Below, in pieces: positions 23,620 through 28,770 of a stretch of 64,000 nt of DNA (position 1 is its first letter; every line of letters begins with the position of its first letter). The DNA comes from Leptospirales bacterium (GTDB taxonomy: Bacteria; Spirochaetota; Leptospiria; Leptospirales; Leptonemataceae). The notes below the pieces were generated by a model. That model had not been told where the DNA came from. It saw only the letters and a list, made by a program, of their open reading frames with translations, and ran no database searches. Location of the stretch: NCBI GenBank assembly GCA_019694655.1, contig JAIBBN010000004.1, positions 1 to 64,000 on the forward strand, read 5' to 3'. Position numbers and translations under genes: made by a program.

Positions 23620-24899
23620 GGCTTCCGACGAATCAGCAACAGTGTTCGATCGTCGGGGAAGGCTTGTTCTTCGCGAAAGACATCCAGAGTTGCATCCAAT
23701 CGGGGAATGACATCCGGAAGCGGAAGGTCTCGCCACTGGCGCAGGAGAGCGTTGATGCGATCTTCTCCATAGAGTTCGCCGCCGCCATTGTGTACATCTG
23801 AATAACCGTCGGAATAAGAAGCAAGCAGGTCTCCCGGTCCAAGCTGACAGCGGCCAGTGCTGAATTCGAATGCAGTCAACCCCAACACGGGACCGGTGCG
23901 TTCTAGCTCTTCCATGCCGCCATCATGGCGCAGGATGACTGGCGGAGTATGACCGGCCAGCAGGTACTCCACCTCGCCAGATTGCGGTTGAATTCGCGCA
24001 ACAAAGCAAGTAATGAAGCGGCCTGTCACCAGAGATTCCAGCAGGTGCTTGTTCAGCCGATTGGCTAAACCGGTCAGGGTAGGCTCGACCTCATTTAGCA
24101 ACTGGTATCCGGTATGGAACTCGGAGACCAGCATTGCCGCCGAGATTCCTTTGCCGGACACGTCAGCAATGATGCAGTCCAGTGCGCCGCTGCGCGCTGG
24201 CCGGAAGCCGTAATAGTCGCCGCCCACTTCGCGCGCCGGTTTCGAACCGCCCAGCACCTCGTAGCCGGCAAAACTTGGCATGGCAGCCGGGAATAGCTTG
24301 TTCTGAATTTCGGAGCAGAGACTCATCTCGGCATCGATCGACTTCTGACGCAATTTAACCTGGTGCAGATGAGCATTCTGGATTGCCAGCGCCGCCTGAT
24401 GAGCAAATCCTTCCAGCAGTTCCTCGTCGCCTTCTGTAAAGGCCTGGCCGTCCATTCGATTCATCAACTGGGCCGTGCCAATGATGATGCTCTCCACAAT
24501 CAAGGGCGTGCAAATGTAGGTCTGCGTCTTGTGTCCAAGCTTGCGATCGATCTGTTCGTAGAAGCGCGGATCATTGTGTACGTCATCGACGCGCACCGTC
24601 TTGCCGGTCTTGGCTACGCTGCCAGCAATCCCCTGGCCGATGGGCACCGAGATCTGCTTGAGCTTATCCCACTGGGGGTCGGTGGACTCCAGAAAAATTA
24701 GATCAGTACGCTCTTCATTGATCAGCGCAATGGAACCAACCTCTGCGCGCATCAGTTCGCAGGCGCGCCGCAGCGTATTTTTCAGAACGACATCAAGGTC
24801 CAGCGAGGCGTTCAGCAGCGCGAAAGAGTCCACCAGCGCCCGCAGGCGAAAGAGTTCCTCCTCCATTTCCAGATCGGAATTTTGATTCTCGACGCTCAA
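23616..24899 (-). CDS. GAF domain-containing SpoIIE/RsbU-type PP2C phosphatase
   Basis: This 427-residue signalling protein has an N-terminal GAF domain (about 25-175; VGSIALINEERTDLIF, GQGIAGSVAKTGKTV) and a C-terminal PP2C phosphatase of the SpoIIE/RsbU class. The phosphatase metal motifs are EVGGDYYGF, IIADVSGKGISAAML, LLAGHTPPVIL, LLASYSDGYSDVHN and the final DDRTLLLIRR. It probably dephosphorylates an anti-sigma antagonist in response to a small ligand. The start is TTG overlapping the upstream TGA (TTGA), preceded by GGGGGGAA; an internal ATG lies 11 codons later. The stop overlaps the following lipoprotein ATG. Confidence 0.9.
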   Translation of the reverse strand: MSVENQNSDLEMEEELFRLRALVDSFALLNASLDLDVVLKNTLRRACELMRAEVGSIALINEERTDLIFLESTDPQWDKLKQISVPIGQGIAGSVAKTGKTVRVDDVHNDPRFYEQIDRKLGHKTQTYICTPLIVESIIIGTAQLMNRMDGQAFTEGDEELLEGFAHQAALAIQNAHLHQVKLRQKSIDAEMSLCSEIQNKLFPAAMPSFAGYEVLGGSKPAREVGGDYYGFRPARSGALDCIIADVSGKGISAAMLVSEFHTGYQLLNEVEPTLTGLANRLNKHLLESLVTGRFITCFVARIQPQSGEVEYLLAGHTPPVILRHDGGMEELERTGPVLGLTAFEFSTGRCQLGPGDLLASYSDGYSDVHNGGGELYGEDRINALLRQWRDLPLPDVIPRLDATLDVFREEQAFPDDRTLLLIRRKP

Positions 24900-25582
24900 C
24901 TTACTGTTCCCCCCGGTCCGCGCAACGACGGCGGCGTATAGTAAACGCGCGTCGCAGGCATTTGTATGATTTCTCGCGATTCCAGCACGCAGGCGCTGAG
25001 CGCTCTGCCGTAAACGCAGCCCGAATCCAATCCCAGGCTACGCTCACGGATATTCAAGCCCTTGCGCGCCCAGTGCCCGTAGAATACCGGTTTTTCGCCG
25101 CTATAGAATTCGTACCATGGCGGATTTGCCGGATTGGAAAGATCGCGCCCGCGGCCATCCCAGGTGCGGATATTTACCAGCACTCGAGGCGGCGTACGCT
25201 CAGGCCGCCGGCGCGGCCATAATCCGGCATGAACAGCGAGAAATTCGGCGGACTCCAAAAAGAAAGGTCTTTGTTCCAGCCATTGGTGCAGTTGCGGTCC
25301 CAGTTGATCGCGCAGTCGGCCGTAGCGCTCGCTGCTCAAGTAGCGTTGCAGGTATTCAAGGTCGTGGTTGCCCATCAAACACTCAAATCCGCGCCGCGCC
25401 ACAAATTCTACGCAGCCGGCGCTGTCCGGACCGCGATTGATCAGATCGCCCAGCATGATCACACGATCCTCGGCGCCCAGACGCAGCTTGCGAATCAAGC
25501 GCTGCAGCTCGGCCAGGCAGCCGTGGACATCGCCCACAAATATGGTTCGGCGGGTAATCTGCTTCTTGTGCCAGAAGGCCAT
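24896..25582 (-). CDS. PPP-family metallophosphatase, ApaH-like
   Basis: This 228-residue phosphatase shows the full PPP signature: FVGDVHGC (D18, H20), MLGDLINRGPDS, LMGNHDLEYL, AVHAGLWP and FYGHWA. The C-terminal GLDSGCVYGRALSA closely follows the end of ApaH (symmetrical Ap4A hydrolase), so diadenosine polyphosphate hydrolysis or protein phosphatase activity is likely. It is about 40 residues shorter than E. coli ApaH. ATG at 25582 is chosen; a TTG at 25594 overlaps the hemF stop (TTGA) and would add four residues. The gene lies between hemF and the GAF-PP2C gene in one run. Confidence 0.85.
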   Translation of the reverse strand: MAFWHKKQITRRTIFVGDVHGCLAELQRLIRKLRLGAEDRVIMLGDLINRGPDSAGCVEFVARRGFECLMGNHDLEYLQRYLSSERYGRLRDQLGPQLHQWLEQRPFFLESAEFLAVHAGLWPRRRPERTPPRVLVNIRTWDGRGRDLSNPANPPWYEFYSGEKPVFYGHWARKGLNIRERSLGLDSGCVYGRALSACVLESREIIQMPATRVYYTPPSLRGPGGTVS

Positions 25583-25590
25583 GCGCACGC

Positions 25591-26568
25591 TCAATCGGCC
25601 GGCGCGGAGTCGGCAGAAGTCGATTCCAGCCAGTCCCTGGGAAAACGCAATACATTCAGCAGTCGCTGCTCTTCAGCGGAATTTGCTTTGCGGTCGTACT
25701 GCCAGGCGGCCAGCGGCGGCATGCTCATCAGGATCGACTCAATGCGTCCGCCGGTGCGCAGACCAAATTGCGTACCGCGGTCGTGGAGCAGGTTGAATTC
25801 CGCGTACCGCCCCCGACGCCAGAGTTGAAATGTGCGCTGGGCCGGCGTAGAAGCAATCGCCGAACGTCGTTCAACGATGGGGACGTAGGAGGCCAAAAAG
25901 CAGCTGGCGCCATCCAGCACAAAGCGCAATGCGGCTTCCAGGTCTCCCTGCAGATAATCAAAAAAAATTCCGCCGACGCCGCGCGCTTCGCGGCGATGCG
26001 TTAGCCAGAAATACTCGTCGCATTGTTTTTTGAACTGCGCATAGTTTGCGACTGAATGCCGATCACAGAGTTCCTGCCACAATTCGTGAAAGTGGCGTGC
26101 ATCTTCCTCATAGAGGATTGAGGGCGTCAGGTCGGCGCCGCCGCCAAACCATAGCTTCTCCGGCGATTGCAGCGATCCGCGCAGGATAATTCGGAAGTTC
26201 GCATGCACCGTTGGCACATGCGGATTTCTGGGATGCAGCACCAGCGAGAGGCCGCTGGCCCGAAAGGCGCGCTCCTGTCCCGGCAAAGAATTTTGCAGCT
26301 CCTCGTTGAACTGGCCTTCTACGTTCGAGAAGTTCACCCCGGCTCGTTCAAAGATGCGCCCGCCTTCCAGAACACGCGTGCGACCGCCGCCGCCCAGGCT
26401 GAGCCCCTCCTCGCCGCTTTGCCAGAGTTCCTCTTGAAAGGAAAGCGCAGGCAGCCCGGCATCGGCGCTGGCCAGATCCTGTTCCAGCGCTTCGAGGCTG
26501 GCAGTGATAGCGTCCTGGCTTTCGCGGAATCCGGCGACCGCCTCCTCAAAGATTTGCCGCGCTTCCAG
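25591..26568 (-). CDS. hemF: Coproporphyrinogen III oxidase, aerobic, apparently without a canonical start codon
   Basis: The protein matches oxygen-dependent HemF: LGGGGRTRVLEGGRIFE, AGVNFSNVEG, WFGGGADLTP, ARGVGGIFFDYL and RGRYAEFNLLHDRGTQFGL are all present. It converts coproporphyrinogen III to protoporphyrinogen IX in heme synthesis. HemF-like coding extends upstream of the GTG at 26337 back to the in-frame TAG at 26577-26575 that ends the preceding lipoprotein gene; no ATG, GTG or TTG lies in that interval. The best candidate is CTG at 26568, five bases after AGTAGG, giving 325 residues, close to the family norm of about 300. Stop-codon readthrough or a sequence error are the alternatives. 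Enzyme identity is secure; the start is not. Confidence 0.85.
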   Translation of the reverse strand: MEARQIFEEAVAGFRESQDAITASLEALEQDLASADAGLPALSFQEELWQSGEEGLSLGGGGRTRVLEGGRIFERAGVNFSNVEGQFNEELQNSLPGQERAFRASGLSLVLHPRNPHVPTVHANFRIILRGSLQSPEKLWFGGGADLTPSILYEEDARHFHELWQELCDRHSVANYAQFKKQCDEYFWLTHRREARGVGGIFFDYLQGDLEAALRFVLDGASCFLASYVPIVERRSAIASTPAQRTFQLWRRGRYAEFNLLHDRGTQFGLRTGGRIESILMSMPPLAAWQYDRKANSAEEQRLLNVLRFPRDWLESTSADSAPAD

Positions 26569-26574
26569 ATGGAC

Positions 26575-27714
26575 CTACTGTCGCTTCCGGGCGATCATCA
26601 AGTTGGAGCGGCCCTGTTGAAAGACATAGCCAATGCCAAAAGGCAGAGACTTGACTGCACTACGATTGGCGTACATTTGCTTGAGGTCATTCTGGATGCG
26701 ATTGGCAAAGAGCGGAATCGGCCGATCGTAAGCGCCGTAGAGCTGCACATCCCATTGCTCGCGGCCAAAAAACCGCACCGGCATTCCAGAGTCGTCCTGC
26801 ATAAAGACTTCGCTTTGCTCCAGAACCAGAGAGCGGATCTTGCTGAAGCTATCGTTGTGCATCAGATAGCTGGCCGCCTTGGCATAGGCATTGAGTCGAC
26901 CCTGTTGATGCATATAATTGAAGAAAGCCTGGTTGTCGCCGTCGTTGGCAATATTCATGGAGAAATACTGCAAGCGCGAGAGCTTGCCGTTCGGGTTGCG
27001 CAGTTCAATTTCGACGCCAGCGATGGCGCCTGGCGAGCTGGCAGCCGTCGCGCCGTTCTGCAACTGGCCGTCGCGATCGAGATGAATGTTGCGGGCATTG
27101 ACGATGACGAGGCCATTGCGCGCCGCAAAGGCCAGAAGCACCGGCGCTACGCCAATCTGGCTCTGCAGCAATTCGACGTGCATGTCGTTAGTGCGAAAAA
27201 AGGAAAAGCGCAGAACGCTGGACAGGCTCTCGCGCGTCAGCTGCATCAAGCGTGCGCGGTTGGCAGCAGGCATATTGGCCAGGTCCGGCGGCAGGCCAGG
27301 CGGCTCCAGACCAAAGTGGATATAGAGCGGCGCCTCCGGAAAGAAGGCGTAGATATGGAGGAAATCCGGGCCGCCAAAGGGATAGAAGACTGTTCGGTCG
27401 CTGCTGCGCGCATCGGCTAGCTCGGCGGCGGCCCAGCTGCGCATAGGATTGAGTCGCGAGGCCTCGATCGGTTCATAATGCTTCCGGAAGTATTCACGCT
27501 GGCGCGCGGCTTCGGGCAGCCTTTCCAGAGCCTGCAGCGCACTGTGTTCCGACACGGGCATGCCTGCCAGATAGCGAGCTACATCGTCCCATTGCCGATT
27601 GTCGGTCGCCGGCTGCGCCTCCGTAGATTGCTGCGGATCAGGCGCGCAGGCCAGAAGCAGCACAAGAATCAAGGCAACGCCGCGCCCCGGCGAGGATCGC
27701 AAAATGTTGGGCAT
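26575..27714 (-). CDS. Lipoprotein of unknown function
   Basis: This 379-residue protein carries a lipoprotein signal peptide (VALILVLLLAC, Cys about 23) and an acidic Gln/Thr-rich linker. The mature domain has TVFYPFGGPDFLHIYAFFPEAPLYIHFGLEP-type aromatic beta structure (quoted in two parts: TVFYPFGGPDFLHIYAFFPE, then APLYIHFGLEP), and later VRFFGREQWDVQLYGAYDRPI with a C-terminal GIGYVFQQGRSNLMI. The FYPFGGPDF pattern recurs in uncharacterised bacterial exported proteins, but I cannot name a family. It ends with TAG in the same reading frame as the hemF N-terminus that follows, which makes the boundary unusual. Confidence 0.75.
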   Translation of the reverse strand: MPNILRSSPGRGVALILVLLLACAPDPQQSTEAQPATDNRQWDDVARYLAGMPVSEHSALQALERLPEAARQREYFRKHYEPIEASRLNPMRSWAAAELADARSSDRTVFYPFGGPDFLHIYAFFPEAPLYIHFGLEPPGLPPDLANMPAANRARLMQLTRESLSSVLRFSFFRTNDMHVELLQSQIGVAPVLLAFAARNGLVIVNARNIHLDRDGQLQNGATAASSPGAIAGVEIELRNPNGKLSRLQYFSMNIANDGDNQAFFNYMHQQGRLNAYAKAASYLMHNDSFSKIRSLVLEQSEVFMQDDSGMPVRFFGREQWDVQLYGAYDRPIPLFANRIQNDLKQMYANRSAVKSLPFGIGYVFQQGRSNLMIARKRQ

Positions 27715-27744: not shown

Positions 27745-28770
27745 TCAATTCGAATCGGGATGCAGTCGAGCGGAGGCGGCGCGGCGCAGTCGGTCATTGA
27801 TCGCCCGGCCCAGTCCAGCCTCGGGAGCGGGCAGGGCCACAAGCAGGTCGGCTTCGCTGGCCCATTCTTCGAAAGCAGAAAACAAGGCCGCCGCCGCCTC
27901 GCGCAGGTTGCCAGAAGGAGCAAGCACGGCCAGGCGATGTGGCGGCATCGATTGCAGCCACTGTGCTTCCGGCGGGAGCGGCGAAAGCAGTACAATCCGT
28001 CCGGGCGCGTGGCCCAGCTTTGCAATGGTCAGGCGCCAGAAATCCTCGCGCTGCTTCGCGTTGAGTTTGGTCCAGCCTTCCAGCCAGAGCAGCGGCGCGT
28101 CGGGCGCGTAGTGCTGCAGCAGTTGTCCAGGCGAGCGCGGCGCTCCGCTCTCCCGAACTTCCGTAACGACTTCAAATCCTGCGGCCTGCAGCTCCTCGCG
28201 TGTGAGCCCGCCTTCGCGCAGCAGCAGCAGCCCCTCTGGCGTCGATTGGAGCACGGTCGATTCCAGCCCGACGCGACAGGGGCCGCCTTCCAGGAAGCCC
28301 GCGACGGCAAAAGATAGCTGAGCGCAGGCCATGGCCGCGGTGGTCGGACTGCGTCGCCCGGATAGATTGGCCGACGGGGCGGCCAGCGGGAAGTCGCAGG
28401 CGTGCAGCAGGGCAAGCGCCTGCGGATGATCGGGGGCGCGAAAAGCGACCGGGCCGCCTCCGCCGCTGACAATGGGCGGAATGGCGCCGCGTTGTTCCAG
28501 CACCAGACTCAGCGGCCCTGGCCAGAACTGATCAGCCAGGGCGGCGCTCAGCGCATCCACCCGGGCATAGCGGTGCAAGGCATCGAGCCCGCTGACATGA
28601 CAGATGATCGGGTTAAAATGTGGACGGCCCTTGGCTTCGAAAATCGAAGCAACGGCCTGTGCATCCAGGGCGTTGGCCGCCAGGCCGTAGACTGTTTCGG
28701 TGGGAATCAAGGCCAGCTGTCCGCGTCGTAAAACGGCGGCAGCTTCGGCAACGCTCAGCTCGAGGCTCAC
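27745..28770 (-). CDS. tsaC: L-threonylcarbamoyladenylate synthase, Sua5 type
   Basis: The 341-residue enzyme makes threonylcarbamoyl-AMP for the tRNA t6A37 modification. The YrdC domain (1-200) shows ALIPTETVYGLAANA, a KGRPHFNPIICHV segment, FWPGPLSLVLE, FRAPDHPQALALL and AAPSANLSGRRSPTTA. The length beyond about 205, including QLLQHYAPDAPLLWLEG, corresponds to the C-terminal Sua5 domain, so this is the long form. The GTG start overlaps the M16 peptidase stop (GTGA). Confidence 0.92.
   Translation of the reverse strand: MSLELSVAEAAAVLRRGQLALIPTETVYGLAANALDAQAVASIFEAKGRPHFNPIICHVSGLDALHRYARVDALSAALADQFWPGPLSLVLEQRGAIPPIVSGGGGPVAFRAPDHPQALALLHACDFPLAAPSANLSGRRSPTTAAMACAQLSFAVAGFLEGGPCRVGLESTVLQSTPEGLLLLREGGLTREELQAAGFEVVTEVRESGAPRSPGQLLQHYAPDAPLLWLEGWTKLNAKQREDFWRLTIAKLGHAPGRIVLLSPLPPEAQWLQSMPPHRLAVLAPSGNLREAAAALFSAFEEWASEADLLVALPAPEAGLGRAINDRLRRAASARLHPDSN

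Follow-up and report, generated by a model that had tools for sequence, protein, structure and literature searches.

The hemF gene lies on the minus strand of the analysed window, which is the whole stretch of 64,000 nucleotides, with a lipoprotein gene and sua5 in front of it and a metallophosphoesterase gene behind it (Table 1). Its predicted product matched PF01218 with 356.1 bits (cut-off 31.8) over profile positions 6-295 of 295, from residue 16 of the frame, and the NCBIfam equivalog NF003727 with 354.2 bits (cut-off 297) over profile positions 5-294 of 294, from residue 13. Judged by these profile matches, the product is HemF, the oxygen-dependent coproporphyrinogen oxidase, and hemF is the only PF01218 gene in the genome. 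The coding frame shows no stop, no frameshift and no loss of coding signal over its 327 codons.

An earlier note on this DNA had reported that hemF lacks a canonical start codon, and its description and coordinates were correct. When the frame was read from TAG 26577-26575 to GTG 26337, neither ATG, GTG nor TTG was present in the first 79 codons, and the positions of the TAG, GTC, CTG, ATC and GTG codons, together with that of the stop TGA at 25593, were all verified in the sequence. As had also been noted, the homology to HemF continues through this region almost to the TAG, with profile matches beginning at residues 13-16, and a start at GTG 26337 would delete the conserved N-terminal part of the protein. 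Gene callers limited to ATG, GTG and TTG would shorten this hemF by about a quarter. A frameshift near the start was rejected because, by eye, the other two upstream frames contained no ATG leading into hemF.

Table 1. Coordinates of the hemF locus, its candidate start codons and hflX.
Feature	Position	Strand	Remarks
Metallophosphoesterase gene	24896..25594	minus	PF00149; downstream neighbour of hemF
hemF, stop-to-stop frame	25591..26574	minus	327 codons plus TGA; full-length PF01218 and NF003727 matches
GTG, first canonical codon of hemF	26335..26337	minus	a start here would cut conserved N-terminal residues
ATC, alternative candidate start of hemF	26551..26553	minus	-12 from QD; many Flavobacteria start there
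CTG, favoured candidate start of hemF	26566..26568	minus	17 codons before QD; aligns with the L003 ATG; putative use
GTC, alternative candidate start of hemF	26572..26574	minus	-19 from QD, directly after TAG; Streptomyces sigR precedent (PMC5472188)
TAG, true end of lipoprotein gene	26575..26577	minus	stop position of homologues
Lipoprotein gene	26575..27714	minus	between sua5 and hemF; not at this position in 10 relatives keeping sua5-hemF
sua5 (threonylcarbamoyl-AMP synthase)	27745..28770	minus	PF01300 and PF03481; immediately upstream of hemF in relatives
hflX	C1:13962-15734	minus	TIGR03156 424 bits (cut-off 217); no canonical start

The HemF loci used for comparison came from the same family and from 80 genome contigs, and 91 of them had a readable N-terminus. 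One further HemF contig was truncated and stands outside the 91, and as L003 and L015 are probably one genome in two collections, slightly fewer than 91 genomes are independent. An alignment of HemF N-termini had been proposed in the earlier note; in it, all 91 comparison loci have a canonical start codon 12-32 codons ahead of the conserved QD motif, and the hemF of the window alone has none. Because every comparison locus has a canonical start in this interval, the absence in the window is, on the alignment, beyond chance. No non-canonical hemF start was found among the comparison loci. The earlier note had taken a normal ATG in orthologues as an argument against its claim. Orthologues do have a normal start, which shows a loss of the start in the present lineage, but no normal start is thereby shown for the present gene. 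In a codon-usage screen covering approximately 1,224 genes (1.65 Mb, 42% of the genome; a smaller run was also made), hemF was the strongest case of coding signal upstream of the first canonical start (22.9), followed by hflX (12.9), while all other genes reached at most 8.1.

The gene order in front of hemF is also altered. Of 12 family relatives, 10 have hemF immediately after sua5, and these 10 have an M16 peptidase gene upstream and, in nine cases, the metallophosphoesterase gene downstream. The window retains all four genes, but the lipoprotein gene splits sua5 from hemF and ends 6 bases before CTG 26568, and the canonical start of hemF is absent exactly at this point of altered gene order. 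The lipoprotein-like family matched no Pfam or NCBIfam entry; homologues were found elsewhere in 20 of the 22 family genomes, frequently with several copies per genome. In 28 of 29 homologues the stop codon, be it TAA, TAG or TGA, falls no more than 1 codon ahead of TAG 26577-26575 and no more than 14 codons past it, so this TAG is, by homology, the natural end of the lipoprotein gene; the 29th had no stop within the stretch examined. Neither the fact that this gene is an insertion in front of hemF nor the second, conserved non-canonical start described below (hflX) was part of the earlier note.

Three codons could serve as the start of hemF. CTG 26568, the best supported of the three explanations offered in the earlier note, is favoured, since the closest relative, L003, whose HemF is approximately 60% identical, has its ATG at this place in the alignment. 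On this alignment we tentatively assign the start to CTG 26568, while use of either ATC or GTC, taken jointly, appears unlikely. With regard to ATC, hflX of the same genome also appears to start at this codon. A Shine-Dalgarno-like AGGT precedes the CTG at reasonable spacing, but its duplex energy of -5.3 kcal/mol is reached by about one quarter of random sites, so it lies within background and was given no weight as support. Duplex energies were calculated with an assumed general bacterial anti-Shine-Dalgarno sequence, as a search with RF00177 detected no 16S rRNA in the assembly. For the genes of the window as a whole, the Shine-Dalgarno signal was barely over background. The RNA at the lipoprotein-hemF junction folded no better than shuffled sequences (z +1.14). 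Against the CTG, a CUG start is poor in E. coli, where it yields 0.86% of the AUG level; CUG makes up 0.024% of bacterial starts (PMC11497404), and a mycobacterial selection showed no enrichment of CTG starts (PMC4633059). In favour of re-initiation, non-canonical codons downstream of a stop are reported to initiate translation in E. coli with inactive ribosome recycling factor (PMC2268962).

The second case of the screen, hflX, was surveyed in 27 genomes of two families, including the present one, whose AUC at about C1:15692 stands in the alignment where relatives have ATG. Three codons ahead of the conserved (I/L)(S/T)GN motif, 19 of the 27 genomes have ATC, ATA or ATT and five have ATG; one codon later, AUH (AUA, AUC or AUU) is found in two genomes and TTG in one. 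Altogether, 21 of the 27 genomes have AUH at the start position or beside it. Of these 21, 14 lack any canonical codon in the 20 codons upstream, and the remaining seven, in which one is present, are less secure. The Shine-Dalgarno sequences before the AUH starts have a mean energy of -6.9 kcal/mol, the median site being matched by 6.5% of the random sites of its locus, and those of the five ATG-started hflX genes are weaker (-0.1 to -4.2 kcal/mol). For three genomes from a single genus (L204, L205 and L209), the upstream stop is found six codons ahead of the motif; there, the sole plausible start is an AUC with GAGGAG or AAGGAG five bases in front of it. Because AUH is present in so large a share of the genomes, often behind a strong Shine-Dalgarno sequence, non-AUG initiation very probably occurs in this lineage. 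A partial literature search found no report of AUH starts on hflX. The non-canonical start is better supported for hflX than for hemF, and it is probably the more important result.

As a control, lepA was found to begin with ATG in 19 of 19 genomes of the same family and was ruled out as a further non-canonical case; infC was likewise ruled out, as ATG or TTG is available in the genome of the window. Separately, a gene for a PLD-domain protein (cardiolipin-synthase-like; C2:12935-14158, minus strand) lacks a canonical start over the 42 codons that follow its upstream stop; its homology to two relatives begins at approximately residue 19, with CTG and ATC just upstream.

We consider it moderately probable that hemF is intact, that it lost its canonical start with the insertion of the lipoprotein gene, and that it is now weakly translated from a non-canonical codon, with CTG favoured. 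The lipoprotein gene would have come to lie between sua5 and hemF, taking the place of the leader and start of hemF. Ribosomes that finish the lipoprotein at TAG 26575 would then re-initiate at a nearby non-canonical codon, probably CTG 26568, to give a product of approximately 325 residues. Non-canonical initiation on hemF is plausible because hflX of the same genome has an AUH start common to its relatives. HemF output would be low, which may be tolerable since the genome contains a complete hemN and 9 of the 22 family genomes have no detectable hemF. The same two facts make early decay a live rival, in which hemF has lost its start, is no longer usefully translated and leaves the work to HemN. 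We regard such decay as unlikely, since the HemF profile is still matched over its full length and the frame is undamaged throughout.

The hemF case rests on one genome, the only one of its genus in the comparison, and a single substitution at the CTG would give an ATG exactly where the closest relative has its own. The start could accordingly be missing through an error of sequencing or assembly, the real genome having a canonical start or the junction being misassembled. We consider this improbable as well: the start is missing exactly where the insertion altered the operon, a coincidence that makes random error less likely, apart from the start, all 327 codons of the frame are intact, and the other strong case of the screen, hflX, is shared with relatives and so is no error. 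Readthrough of the TAG into a lipoprotein-HemF fusion, raised in the earlier note from the frame that the two genes share, is contradicted by the comparison and has very little probability. The shared frame is real, and it is what such a fusion would need, but by itself it is a one-in-three coincidence. Homologues of the lipoprotein terminate here whichever of the three stops they use, and in relatives the two genes are unlinked, with neither fusion nor linkage kept. A lipoprotein is exported and HemF is a cytoplasmic enzyme, which also counts against a fusion. Recoding of TAG was rejected, as TAG terminates ordinary open reading frames of the window and the lipoprotein family has its natural end here. 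If the preferred reading of an intact, weakly translated hemF holds, the locus suggests a route by which a gene may survive the loss of its start, the gene placed in front supplying ribosomes via its stop.

HflX is a ribosome-splitting GTPase. By analogy with infC and pcnB (AUU) and with ccpN of S. aureus (AUA), we infer that its AUH start may act as a translational limitation sensitive to IF3, which would tie the synthesis of HflX to the level of IF3 or of free subunits, as AUU does for infC. If true, a ribosome-rescue factor would be controlled through its start codon, as is known for IF3 itself. It is conceivable, though doubtful, that a small set of genes is maintained in this group with deliberately weak, IF3-sensitive starts, to which the CUG of hemF would be a recent addition in one lineage.

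Among known systems, Streptomyces sigR likewise encodes a conserved protein with neither ATG, GTG nor TTG at its true N-terminus; it starts at GTC, as proven by experiment, and GTC or GTT is kept within the genus (PMC5472188). Unlike hemF, which is one genome with no clear Shine-Dalgarno sequence, sigR has a full AGGAGGTG ribosome-binding site (PMC5472188). A missing start has been recognised via homology before, once in a spirochaete; in contrast to those cases, lepA begins with ATG here and the affected GTPase is hflX. AUU starts are found on infC and pcnB of E. coli, and AUA or AUU starts on infC, cvfC1, ccpN (AUA) and citZ of S. aureus (PMC1780047, PMC13009471). Like these genes, hemF would begin at a weak non-canonical codon that limits output, but theirs are AUU or AUA rather than CUG, and the S. 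aureus members have an extended Shine-Dalgarno sequence (PMC1780047, PMC13009471). It is hflX that fits this AUU/AUA group well.
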